In this document: positions 50,206 through 54,626 of the stretch, one piece after another | How positions within the stretch are numbered: position 1 is the first letter of the stretch | How the letters are laid out: each line of letters begins with the position of its first letter | Source of the DNA: Candidatus Tectimicrobiota bacterium | GTDB lineage: Bacteria > JACPUC01 | DNA: 64,000 bases | Direction of reading: 5' to 3' | Assembly (NCBI GenBank): GCA_016192455.1 | Contig: JACPUC010000012.1 | Location: 62,001 to 126,000, forward strand | Made by a program: the position numbers and the translations under genes | Notes under the pieces: generated by a model | The model's input: only the letters and a program-made list of their open reading frames with translations | Told to the model about the DNA's origin: nothing | Database searches by the model: none

Positions 50206-51495
50206 TCATGAACCGCGTGCTGCCGCGGCAGCGGTGGCGGCGGCCGCCACCGGGAGGATGGGGCTGACGGTGAAGCGCAGGGCGCGGTGGGCTTGGCGCA
50301 GAGCCTGCTCGACCTGCTGCGGCGAGTCGCCGCGGGCGAAGATGAAGCCGAGGTAGCTCCCCCCCTCCGGCAGCGGCAGGAGCGCCTGCGAGCTCTTCGC
50401 GGTGATGGTCACCTCGTCAATGCCGTCGACGGCGCGGGCGGCCTCAATCCCCTCCACCCGCTCGTAGATGCCGGGCCGTTCAATCGGCAGCATCATCACC
50501 CCGACGGCCCGATCCTCCCGCCGCGGCTCGATCTCCAGGCCGAGGGCGTGGCGGATGATGAGCTCCTCCAACGACATGCCGGTGCCGAAGCGCAGGGTGC
50601 GCGAGCAGAGTCCACCGATGGCGCGCGCGGCGATCTCGAGGATGCGCGGCCCCTGCGGCGTCAGGCGCAGCTCGGCGTGAATCGGTCCGCGCACGAGCCC
50701 CAGGGCGCGGCAGGCGCGGTCGACCTCCTTGACCATGGCGGCCTGCGTGGCCGCGTCTTCGCGTGACGGCGTGACGAAGAGCGTCTCCTCGAAGAACGGC
50801 CCCTCGAGCGGGTCGGGCTTGTCGAAGATCGCCAGGACGCGCAGCACGCCGTTGTCCAGCAACCCCTCCAGCGTCGCCTCGCGCCCCTCAAGGTAGCCCT
50901 CGACGAGAATCCAGTCGTCCGCCTCATCGCGCCGCACGCGCACCTCCGCGGTCCGCAGGAGCGCCGCAACGCGGCGGAAGGCGACGACGAACTCCGCCGG
51001 CCCGCCGGCCCGCACCACCCCGCGGCTGGCGGAGAGCGCCAACGGCTTCAGCACGCAGGGGTAGGCCACCTGGCGCGCGGCGTCCGCCGCATCGGCGTCC
51101 AGGGGGAAGCGCGCGAACGGCGGCACGCTCACGCCCGCGGCGCGCAGGAGCCGGCGCGCCAGGTACTTGTTGCGGCAGGCCGCGGCCGCGGTACTCGGGT
51201 TGTGGGGCAAGCCGAGCCGGGCGCTGGCCAGCGCCGCCGTGCGCACCGGCAGGTCGCCCACCGCCACGATGCCGTGGATGGGATGCTCGCGGGCGTACCG
51301 TTCGATGACGCGCGCCGCCGTCCGCGGTTGGTTGAACCGCAGCGCCAGGGCGCCATCGTGCCAGGGGTCGTCGAGGGAGTGGCAATGATCGGTGCCGAGG
51401 GTCACCGCCACGCCGAGCCGCTGGGCGGCGGCGGCGAAGTCGCGTCCCTCGTACCCCGTCGTGGCGAAGAGGAGGAGGAGCCGTTTCTCATCCAT
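50206..51495 (-). CDS. ATP-grasp ligase (carboxylate-amine ligase-like)
   Basis: 429 residues from the ATG at 51495 (MDEKRLLLLFATTGYEG). The ATP-grasp core is visible: CVLKPLALSASRGV (nucleotide-binding), WILVEGYLEGREATLEG, and ARAIGGLCSRTLRFGTG with the metal-binding IHAELRLTPQGPRILEIAAR. This resembles L-amino-acid ligases and biotin-carboxylase-like enzymes that join a carboxylate to an amine or thiol. The last gene of the minus-strand group YggX-radical SAM-ATP-grasp; starts 123 bp after the radical SAM gene. Confidence 0.82.
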   Translation of the reverse strand: MDEKRLLLLFATTGYEGRDFAAAAQRLGVAVTLGTDHCHSLDDPWHDGALALRFNQPRTAARVIERYAREHPIHGIVAVGDLPVRTAALASARLGLPHNPSTAAAACRNKYLARRLLRAAGVSVPPFARFPLDADAADAARQVAYPCVLKPLALSASRGVVRAGGPAEFVVAFRRVAALLRTAEVRVRRDEADDWILVEGYLEGREATLEGLLDNGVLRVLAIFDKPDPLEGPFFEETLFVTPSREDAATQAAMVKEVDRACRALGLVRGPIHAELRLTPQGPRILEIAARAIGGLCSRTLRFGTGMSLEELIIRHALGLEIEPRREDRAVGVMMLPIERPGIYERVEGIEAARAVDGIDEVTITAKSSQALLPLPEGGSYLGFIFARGDSPQQVEQALRQAHRALRFTVSPILPVAAAATAAAAARGS

Positions 51496-51618: not shown

Positions 51619-53034
51619 TTACAGGAGAGCTACCTGCTCTTCGGTCGGTTCAGCTCAGCAGTACCAGGGCTCGTTCAGGAAGGGGATGCCCTGCCTCAGC
51701 GTGCCGCGCATCGCCAGCGACGGCGGCGTCCGCCCCGCCGCCTCGTGGGCCGCCTGCCAGAGCTGCGCAAAGAGCCGCCGCCGCGTCAGGCCCTGCTGCT
51801 CCCCCTCCTTGACGAGCGCCTGCAGGGTCCAGCAGAGCGTATCCAGGCGGGGATCGCTGTGCGACCAGGGGTAGGAGAGGGAGTCGGGAGCAAAGTCGCC
51901 GACCAGGCGCTGCACCTCCTGCAGCTCCAACAGCCGCGACCCGGCAGGGAGGAGGAGACGCATGGCGAGCTGGATGGGCGCCACGTTCTCGACCAGGTCG
52001 AGCTCGACGAGCACCCGCAGGAGCTCCAGGTAGGTCTCGAAGGTCGTCCAGGGCGAGAAGGGAACGAAGGTCGGCGCCAGCGTCACCCCCGCCTCGCGGC
52101 AGCGCGCCGCCACGCGGTGGAAATCGTCGCGCGTATGCCCCTTGTCGAGGAGGCGGAGGAAACGATCATCGACCGACTCGACGGCGCTGGTCACGAAAGC
52201 GCAGCCGGTGCGGCGCAGCGTTTCGAGGTGCTCCGCATGCCGCAGCAGGTGCTGCACCTTGATCGTCACATCGTAGGTGAGGGCGGGGAACTCGTCGTGC
52301 AGCGCTTCCACCAGGGCCAGCGCGTGCCGCACGCCGTTGAAGAAGTCGGGATCGCCGAAAGTGAGGTGCCGCGCCCCCGCCGCCACCTGCTGCCGGATGT
52401 CGGCCAGGACCACCTGGCGCTGCACGATGCGGAACTGTCCGTTGTAGACGGGCACGATGGGGCAATGCCGGCAGCGGTGCTTGCAGCCGCGGCTCGCCTC
52501 GGTGTAGCCGGCGAGGCGCGTCTCGCCATCGGGGAGGAGGAGCTGGGCGTAGCGATGCAGGGGGGGCAGCCCACGGCGCTCGGGCACCTTGAAGGGGAGC
52601 TTGTCGAGGGAGATGACCGGCTCGCCCTGCGATTGGTCGCGGCGCGCGGCGCCCGGGGAGGCGCCGGCGAGACGCAGGCGCTCCACCATGCGCACCAGGC
52701 CGGGTTCGAACTCGCCGCCCAGGATGGTCTGCGCCCCGAGCCGCCTGAGGTACGCCTCGTTCATCGGCGCGTAGAGTCCGTAGAAGCAGAGGTGCGCGCG
52801 GGGATTGAGTTGCCTCACCCTGTCGAGCAGGCGCGCCGCCAGCTTGGTGGCGGTGTGCATCGGCACGTAGAAGGCCACCGCATCGGCACAACTCACCTCG
52901 TCCTCGCGCAGCGGCTCCTTCGCCAAGTCCTGGCAGGAGACGGCGACGCCCGCCTGCGTCAGCCACGCCGCGGGCGAGGCGAGGCCGAAGGGCTGGCGGC
53001 CGAGGTCGTAGGTGGAGATGAGGACAACCCGCAT
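51619..53034 (-). CDS. CUAEP-tail radical SAM protein, probable selenoprotein (UGA read as Sec at residue 460)
   Basis: The radical SAM motif CKHRCRHC (Cys184/188/191) and the C-terminal half TFGDPDFFNG, HLLRHAEHLETL are typical; the N-terminal 110 residues resemble a B12-binding-like Rossmann domain (RVVLISTYDLG). The frame meets a TGA at 51657-51655 right after TGC. Continuing through it gives Cys459-Sec460-Ala-Glu-Pro-Thr-Glu-Glu-Gln-Val-Ala-Leu-Leu and a TAA at 51621-51619, for 471 residues. The named CUAEP/CCAEP-tail radical SAM family, which I recall from protein-family databases, has this ending with Sec or Cys in the second position. A SECIS-like hairpin follows. Function unknown. Located between yggX and the ATP-grasp gene. 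Confidence 0.85.
51626..51640 (-). promoter_or_regulatory. SECIS-like hairpin for selenocysteine insertion
   Basis: On the minus strand AGAGC pairs perfectly with GCUCU around the loop AGGUA. The GGU triplet lies 21-23 nt after the UGA. E. coli fdhF SECIS has GC-AGGUCU-GC with GGU 19-21 nt after its UGA, so both the loop and the distance agree. It overlaps the coding sequence, as bacterial SECIS elements do. Confidence 0.75.
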
Positions 53035-53106: not shown

Positions 53107-53412
53107 TTACATCTTGCCTTGCGGCGGCACATAGCCCGGCGGCAACGCGGCATCCTCGCCAAAGAAGAACTCTTCCATCTGAGAGAGGATGAGCTCGTCC
53201 GATTCAGGCTCCGACGGCGTGAGCCGATACTCATTGATGACCATGATGAGGAACTCCTTCCACATCTCCCACGCCCGCTGCGAGACGTTCTCGTAGATGC
53301 GCGCGGCCAGCTCTTCCGGAGCCATCAGCTTGACGATCTCGTAGGTCGTCTCATCAATGCCGGGGAGCTCTTCTGACAGCTTGATGCACTTCACCATGCG
53401 CGGCTCGGCCAT
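53107..53412 (-). CDS. yggX: YggX-like Fe(II) trafficking protein
   Basis: 101 residues from the ATG at 53412, preceded by AAGGAGA. Segments PGIDETTYEIVKLMAPEELA, ISARIYENVSQRAWEMW-like (here ARIYENVSQRAWEMW), INEYRLTPSE and MEEFFFG match YggX, which has an early Cys (here in MVKCIKL), a central Trp and a late FLF. YggX protects Fe-S clusters and labile iron. It precedes the radical SAM gene by 72 bp on the same strand and probably shares the transcript. Confidence 0.72.
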   Translation of the reverse strand: MAEPRMVKCIKLSEELPGIDETTYEIVKLMAPEELAARIYENVSQRAWEMWKEFLIMVINEYRLTPSEPESDELILSQMEEFFFGEDAALPPGYVPPQGKM

Positions 53413-53544
53413 ACCGTGTCTCCTTGTGGCGAAACCCTTGCGCCAACGACCATGCGAAGGCGGCCCATCCTGAGCTTCAGTATAGTACACGAGCGGGGGG
53501 GAACAAGCGCTTCTGCCGCCGCGATGTCGCGCCGCCCCGCCCCC

Positions 53545-54405
53545 TCAGCGGAAGAGCGTCACCAGGCTGGCGCCCAGCACGATCAGGCAGGTGGCGGCGA
53601 CCACCCGCGTCGTGATGAACTCGCTGTCGCGCAGCAGCAGGAGGCTGAGGACCATCGAGAAGAGCGGCGCGGTGTTCATGAGGGTGGTCACCACGATGAT
53701 GTTGCCGAGCTGCAAGGACTTGAAATTGGCGTAGACCGCGACCAGGGAGAAGACGCCGGCGCCGCTGAAATGCAGGAGACTCCGCCTGTCGCCGACGAGA
53801 CCGCGGCCGTGGCTGCGCAGCAGGGAGACGCCGACGAGGCAGAGCATGCCGCTCGTGATGGTGATCGCCGCGCCGGCCATGGCATGCGGGTAGAGCTGCA
53901 GGCCAAGCTGGCGGAGATTGACCGACACGCCGAAGGTCAGGGCCGAGAGAATCGGGAAGAGGAAGGCCGCCCGTTGCCTCCGGCCTTCCTCGCGTGGCGC
54001 CGTGAGCAGCGCCACGCCACCCACGCAGACGAGGGTCCCGAGCACCAGCGGCAGCCGCGCCGGCTCGCCGAACGCCGCGATGGCGACCAGCATGGTCACG
54101 ATCGGCATGGTGGCGATCACCGGGTGGGCGCGCGTGACGCCCAGCCGGGCGATGCCAAGGAAGCCGAAGTACCTCCCCAGCGCCGGCGAGAGCAACCCGG
54201 CGAGGATGAAGATGACGAGGGCCTTGGCGGGGATGCTGTCGATCCCACCCGTCCCCAGGAGGATCGACCAGTAGACGAGAATGTTCACGAAGGTGGAGAT
54301 GACCGTTGCGGAGATCGGTGAGGCGGTGCGCATGCCCCACTTGGCGAAGATGTTGCTGGCGCCGAACCCGAAGGCGCTGAGCAGGGCGAAGGCCACCGCG
54401 AGCAT
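53545..54405 (-). CDS. EamA/DMT-family transporter
   Basis: 286 residues from the ATG at 54405 (MLAVAFALLSAFGFG); the upstream in-frame region is Arg-rich and non-membrane. Ten hydrophobic segments form two EamA repeats (about 1-135 and 150-286), with the typical LGVTRAHPVIATMPIVTML between TM4 and TM5. The family exports amino acids, metabolites or drugs; substrate unknown. Upstream of yggX on the same strand, 132 bp away. Confidence 0.85.
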   Translation of the reverse strand: MLAVAFALLSAFGFGASNIFAKWGMRTASPISATVISTFVNILVYWSILLGTGGIDSIPAKALVIFILAGLLSPALGRYFGFLGIARLGVTRAHPVIATMPIVTMLVAIAAFGEPARLPLVLGTLVCVGGVALLTAPREEGRRQRAAFLFPILSALTFGVSVNLRQLGLQLYPHAMAGAAITITSGMLCLVGVSLLRSHGRGLVGDRRSLLHFSGAGVFSLVAVYANFKSLQLGNIIVVTTLMNTAPLFSMVLSLLLLRDSEFITTRVVAATCLIVLGASLVTLFR

Positions 54406-54626
54406 GGTTGCCTCGACAGCGGAGAGCAGGGTGCGGCGCCGAGCGAGGCCGCGGAGGCGCCCGCGCGGCCGCCGGGCAGGCGAGCGCCGGTGGACCGCCG
54501 CGAAGTTTCGCGCCATACTTCCGGCCGGCGTTGCCGGCGACGGCCCCTGAAGGGGATCGGGGCGCCCCCCACCGGGCCGGGCAGCTCCGCAGGCCCGCCC
54601 GCCGCCCTCGGCCGCGAGGAGGTACG

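Follow-up and report, generated by a model that had tools for sequence, protein, structure and literature searches.

On the minus strand of the 64-kb window (the whole stretch of DNA analysed here), the reading frame of a radical SAM enzyme starts at position 53034 and is interrupted by a TGA at 51657-51655, directly after a TGC codon; a TAA follows in the same frame at 51621-51619. The question raised by this locus is whether the TGA ends the protein or is decoded as selenocysteine (Sec), and to what kind of pathway the enzyme would belong. Under genetic code table 11 the ORF encodes 459 aa (51655-53034). The read-through product is 12 residues longer, with the C-terminus NEPWYC-U-AEPTEEQVALL. 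The first-pass annotation of this DNA had described the stop after TGC, the Cys-Sec-Ala-Glu-Pro tail obtained by read-through and the loss of 12 residues in an ordinary gene call; all of this was exact, with the strand left unstated. It had also described a 5-bp hairpin with the loop AGGUA. This hairpin, which has a G in the loop, is located 15-29 nt 3′ of the UGA and its GGU at 21-23 nt; both distances had been given correctly. An Rfam scan and a tRNA scan of the 64-kb window gave no matches. If the TGA were a true stop, the protein would be the 459-aa form and the 3′ tail a coding-looking remnant. The 459-aa ORF does end at the TGA, and RefSeq ends the homologue from Thermomicrobium roseum at the same TGA. 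The features of the locus are listed in Table 1.

Table 1. Predicted features around the in-frame TGA; positions are those of the 64-kb window.
Feature	Positions	Strand	Remarks
Putative ATP-grasp / L-amino-acid ligase	50206..51495	-	PF13535 and PF18603 (LAL_C2); Cys codon TGC at 50607-50605 in GGL-C-SR
CUAEP-tail radical SAM selenoprotein (predicted)	51619..53034	-	471 aa by read-through; CxxxCxxC at 184/188/191; Cys459-Sec460; NF040546, PF04055
Bacterial SECIS-like hairpin AGAGC-AGGUA-GCUCU	51626..51640	-	Homologue comparison
In-frame TGA, predicted to be read as Sec460	51655..51657	-	80/80 homologues have TGA or a Cys codon here
YggX-like Fe(2+)-trafficking / oxidative damage protection protein	53107..53490	-	PF04362; NF003817 90.7 bits, cut-off 74
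EamA-family transporter	53545..54516	-	Upstream of the YggX-like gene, same strand, close spacing

In the NCBIfam profile search, the read-through product matched NF040546, 'CUAEP/CCAEP-tail radical SAM (seleno)protein', at 629.2 bits (cut-off 500) over positions 1-467 of 468, which is the named family that the first-pass annotation had matched to the tail. Each testable feature of NF040546 was found in the window protein, namely a score over the cut-off, the C-[U/C]-A-E-P tail and the CxxxCxxC motif; the match is full-length and nothing that defines the family differs. C184, C188 and C191 of CxxxCxxC are invariant in 41 aligned radical SAM sequences. Cysteines 34, 83 and 278 are conserved as well, and besides the SAM-cluster cysteines only Cys278, Cys459 and Sec460 (Sec or Cys) are strictly invariant. 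The predicted fold most resembles that of AprD4 (6fd2), a match that tells little about the reaction, and the C-terminal tail has low confidence in the structural model.

The window gene belongs to a known, named and unstudied family, of which it is a member in the Sec form. The ligase and YggX-like partners reported below were not found described for NF040546. A literature search for CUAEP, RCCLKC and NF040546 retrieved no paper, and no paper joining the terms selenoprotein, radical SAM, ATP-grasp and bacterial was found. A 2026 review whose table holds 119 prokaryotic selenoprotein families includes other radical SAM selenoproteins, TIGR04167 and NF045646 (TrsS) among them, and contains neither CUAEP nor NF040546 (PMC13188914). 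TIGR04167 and NF045646 are thus likewise radical SAM selenoproteins, but neither model was among the matches of the window protein. The earlier claim of a hidden selenoprotein holds for this copy, while the family and its seleno nature were already recorded in NCBIfam.

With one genome scanned per species, 537 relatives were obtained, and 80 of these 537 were fetched for comparison. The first-pass annotation had proposed to look for a conserved Cys/Sec-Ala-Glu-Pro in homologues, and W-[YF]-C-[U/C]-A-E-P was found at the end of all 80, with TGA at the position in question in 54 and a Cys codon in 26. The tail lies in the same frame throughout the homologues, and the stem was compared without gaps. 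Two hairpin types were found in TGA members: in GAGC-AGGUN-GCUC the loop is 5 nt long, and in GGACC-AGUU-GGUCC it is 4 nt. Of the seven stem pairs, at least 6 were present in 50 of the 55 TGA members (window included) versus 6 of the 26 Cys members. When the 3′ arms were shuffled between TGA members sharing a hairpin type, the observed pairing was reached in 0 of 1000 trials. The 5-bp stem of the window taken alone is unremarkable (probability 0.034 under a synonymous-codon null), so the evidence for the hairpin comes from comparing homologues, not from this one stem. The two SECIS types within this one radical SAM family differ in pairing by an offset of one base, with near-identical encoded residues.

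The genome of the window is a 4.46-Mb draft, 88% complete. selA, selB, selC and selD, for which the first-pass annotation had suggested a search, were all present: SelB at 366 bits, SelA at 596 bits adjoining SelB, tRNA-Sec at 75.5 bits against a gathering score of 47, and SelD at 389 bits. Since the SelD gene has one in-frame TGA (L018; G000:C3:190907-191827), SelD is probably a selenoprotein itself. In a tree of 81 proteins from which the tail was left out, Sec forms occur throughout and seven Sec/Cys changes are seen, so Sec is probably ancestral in the CUAEP-tail family and gave way to Cys on several occasions. Of 26 Sec-form genomes, 23 have SelB above the cut-off. Among 217 evenly sampled Acidobacteriota, SelB was found in 34 of the 37 genomes with the radical SAM gene versus 112 of the 180 without it (Fisher p 2e-4, uncorrected for kinship). 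It had also been asked whether the UGA position is Cys in organisms without Sec. Cys does occur there in other members, but SelB exceeds the cut-off in 21 of 24 Cys-form genomes, and the use of Cys forms as markers of lost Sec decoding was rejected on this ground.

The conservation of C-[U/C]-AEP in every fetched homologue, including those with Cys codons, the association of the hairpin with TGA members and the complete Sec machinery of the genome all speak against a true stop, which we regard as extremely improbable. The comparison indicates that the radical SAM gene is a real selenoprotein gene, its UGA being predicted to be decoded by the genome's own Sec machinery.

Public annotation still truncates CUAEP-tail members, as in Thermomicrobium roseum DSM 5159. 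The RefSeq CDS WP_012643191.1 ends at the TGA in TGT-TGA-GCG-GAG-CCG (L176, NC_011961.1, 9366-9380). It is annotated as CUAEP/CCAEP-tail, yet the Cys-Sec-Ala-Glu-Pro tail is missed. A GGACCC-GUC-GGGUCC hairpin is located 3′ of this TGA.

The next gene downstream of the radical SAM gene, on the same strand, has the ATP-grasp and LAL_C2 domains and the fold features of L-amino-acid ligases, and by these features is an ATP-grasp L-amino-acid ligase of putative activity. No NCBIfam model was over its cut-off for this protein. Its structural model has a pLDDT of 90. BL00235 (3vot) came first by both sequence and fold, and BacD (3vmm) was also among the nearest; these two best matches have the ATP-grasp fold in common with the partner ligase.

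A ligase homologue was found at most 6 kb from the radical SAM gene in 58 of the 80 loci, nearly always just downstream and on the same strand; such neighbour counts depend on the 6-kb flanks and on contig ends. Most of the genomes are draft metagenome assemblies. Nineteen genomes without a nearby ligase were tested. A single copy was located elsewhere in 16 of them, at 477-634 bits, and the ligase was not found in the other 3. No common neighbour family was found at radical SAM genes without a nearby ligase, in scans that list the 25 most frequent families. Among 41 genomes around that of the window, the 3 with a radical SAM gene over the cut-off were exactly the 3 with the ligase (Fisher p 9e-5). 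The ligase search in these 41 genomes gave 3 scores >570 bits, the next best being 152. As judged from these genomes, the ligase is a near-constant partner of the CUAEP-tail radical SAM enzyme.

The ligase carries Cys296 in the motif R-x-I-G-G-L-C, which is invariant in 52 aligned ligases when Sec is counted as Cys. In 4 genomes of the Tectomicrobia phylum (L037, L083, L087 and L172), the codon of Cys296 is an in-frame TGA and the rest of the protein is intact. These four TGA ligase genes adjoin the radical SAM gene. The TGA is followed by a hairpin, GGGAC-CGGGAU-GUCCC, whose stem starts 18 nt past the UGA codon. All five pairs of this hairpin were present in 4/4 TGA forms versus 0/56 Cys forms. 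The hairpin is brought about by synonymous changes, the residues GTGMS being encoded by GGC ACC GGC ATG TCG in the window and by GGG ACC GGG ATG TCC in the TGA forms. SelB was found in 3 of 3 searched genomes with a TGA ligase (G060, G061 and G062). The codon null for the hairpin is ~0.08 per sequence and the four TGA forms are kin, so the case for Sec in the ligase is made by the Cys-to-TGA match, SelB and the hairpin together.

A second ligase copy, with Cys, is present elsewhere in 3 of these 4 genomes (L145, L174 and L175). Sec in the second ligase copy of G063 was considered and rejected, the motif Cys being TGT and the reported TGA lying at the gene end. In the alignment to BL00235, the invariant Cys is located in a loop after a conserved arginine, six residues on, at a position where BL00235 has Val. 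Trp332 of BacD has been reported as a key residue of the binding pocket (PMC6920838), and in our own reading of the motif it lies in the same loop. The Cys/Sec of the ligase would be in the presumed substrate-site loop. An ATP-grasp protein or ligase is named in neither selenoprotein review. We consider the ATP-grasp ligase a candidate new selenoprotein family, with Sec in one phylum (Tectomicrobia).

The gene upstream of the radical SAM gene encodes the YggX-like protein, and its true start is probably near 53397. YggX was found near the radical SAM gene in 43 of the 80 loci, in two different arrangements, and an Nfu/NifU-type Fe-S carrier in 11; the two were together in 0 of 80. The 58 ligase-bearing loci comprise 43 with YggX and 10 with Nfu, one more radical SAM locus having Nfu (Fisher p 8e-5). 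Nfu is located beside the radical SAM gene or the ligase in NC10, alphaproteobacteria, Chloroflexota and copy B of Tectomicrobia, and in one genome (G031) the order is radical SAM-Nfu-ligase. A ligase far from the radical SAM gene is often accompanied by Nfu or YggX (L153, L156, L157, L159, L160 and L162; L155, L158 and L169). YggX and Nfu seem to replace each other, and the comparison of loci argues for a conserved three-part module consisting of the radical SAM enzyme, the ATP-grasp ligase and a YggX-like or Nfu protein. The EamA-family transporter gene of the window probably shares a transcript with the radical SAM gene here; among relatives, such a transporter was found near the radical SAM gene in 0 of 80 loci.

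Other neighbours were seen in Acidobacteriota. In some of them a DUF169 (PF02596) protein is encoded between the radical SAM gene and the ligase (L035:7473-8255 and L081:4543-5262), and a gene of L030 falls in the same blast cluster group as these DUF169 proteins. In an Acidobacteriota genome without the ligase, an HgcAB-like fusion (NF043039, over the cut-off) is encoded downstream of a Sec-form CUAEP radical SAM gene (L051:9050-10252).

The second-best NCBIfam model for the radical SAM protein was ArsL (NF040542), the RCCLKC-tail protein of arsinothricin biosynthesis, at 287.7 bits and below the cut-off of 450. The two proteins align over 397 columns with 33% identity, and the vicinal Cys pair of RCCLKC aligns with the CU/CC tail. 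CxxxCxxC and a C-terminal vicinal Cys pair are common to both. However, the window protein has WYCUAEP instead of RCCLKC and about 50 extra residues before the tail, and the ArsL-type proteins compared lack the Cys34 and Cys278 conserved in the CUAEP family. By sequence, ArsL appears as the nearest characterised relative of the radical SAM enzyme. The enzyme is a CUAEP-tail protein that may act in an ArsL-like manner and is not an ArsL, because it has the features of NF040546 and lacks both the score and the tail of ArsL.

The gene neighbourhoods were compared likewise. An ATP-grasp gene is also present in ArsL-type clusters on Priestia and Alicyclobacillus plasmids, but its products belong to another subfamily without the GGLC motif. 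That the ArsL-cluster ligase is the same enzyme as the partner ligase was rejected, the identity being 21-25% and GGLC being absent. Neither Nfu nor YggX was annotated in the ArsL-type clusters inspected. arsM, arsQ, arsN and arsR were not detected among the scanned neighbours in the window, and in relatives, where 149 flanking ORFs were assigned to Pfam families, the 25 commonest families included no arsenic genes. Since no arsenic genes stood out nearby, the substrate of ArsL was not carried over to the window protein.

For ArsL, transfer of the 3-amino-3-carboxypropyl group from SAM to As(III) has been proposed from heterologous production of hydroxyarsinothricin (PMC8552651). An ArsL-like mechanism is proposed for the window protein because of the ArsL alignment, the aligned vicinal Cys pair and the ATP-grasp gene in ArsL-type clusters; as an exact chemistry drawn by analogy, we put it forward only tentatively. 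In this mechanism, what the enzyme acts on and makes, and what Sec and YggX or Nfu do, are inferred. The Cys-Sec tail would hold a soft atom or a cluster at the radical active site. A SAM-derived fragment, at best guess the 3-amino-3-carboxypropyl group, would be joined to the held atom to give an unusual amino acid, which the ligase would couple to another amino acid. Nfu or YggX would keep the oxygen-sensitive cluster supplied.

Lipoyl synthase LipA spends an auxiliary Fe-S cluster in each turnover, and NfuA rebuilds it. The main rival to the ArsL-like chemistry is an insertion of sulfur or selenium of this kind, in which an auxiliary Fe-S cluster (or a chalcogen on Cys-Sec) would be spent per turnover and rebuilt by Nfu or YggX, and the ligase would couple a thio- or seleno-amino acid. 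The location of Nfu beside the radical SAM gene or the ligase, and its exchange with YggX without joint occurrence in 80 loci, are consistent with such a reaction, and cysteines 34, 83 and 278 together with Cys459-Sec460 could hold a second cluster. However, strict invariance besides the SAM-cluster cysteines is limited to Cys278, Cys459 and Sec460, the nearest characterised relative, ArsL, is not a sulfur-inserting enzyme, and the role of Nfu or YggX could just be protection of the SAM cluster in aerobes. We regard chalcogen insertion as rather doubtful.

The first-pass annotation had proposed that the Cys-Sec pair makes a redox relay next to the radical SAM site. Read in this way, the pair would reduce an intermediate or, once the radical step is over, donate an electron or a hydrogen atom. 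A vicinal Cys-Sec, its exchange form Cys-Cys and the seven exchanges on the tree would suit such a pair. Against it, Sec recurs in the presumed substrate-site loop of the ligase partner, where redox is not expected, and the related ArsL-type enzyme, whose tail is RCCLKC, reportedly acts on As(III) (PMC8552651). We regard the redox pair as unlikely; the relatives suggest a biosynthetic pathway that includes an amino-acid ligase rather than a redox relay. The best explanation as a whole, that of a selenoprotein in a three-part module for which the ArsL-like chemistry is the most likely one, seems to us quite probable. Sec use, conservation of the tail, pairing with the ligase, exchange of YggX and Nfu and kinship with ArsL are supported by comparison of the homologues.

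On balance we lean somewhat towards the view that the locus represents a widespread, undescribed biosynthetic module, in which Sec/Cys would serve the radical SAM enzyme and the ligase alike at positions that hold the substrate, and YggX and Nfu interchange. An odd lone stop codon has in this way led, through comparison of relatives, to a testable pathway. To our knowledge, the partnership with the ligase, the ligase as a selenoprotein and the exchange of YggX and Nfu are new. If this view is true, the ATP-grasp ligase would add a new family to the known selenoproteins, and YggX, the role of which is debated, could supply iron or Fe-S clusters in the manner of Nfu. The bacteria concerned are Acidobacteriota, NC10, Chloroflexota, Tectomicrobia and others. 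If the ArsL-like chemistry is also true, many soil and groundwater bacteria would make an unrecognised peptide-like metabolite built around a soft atom.
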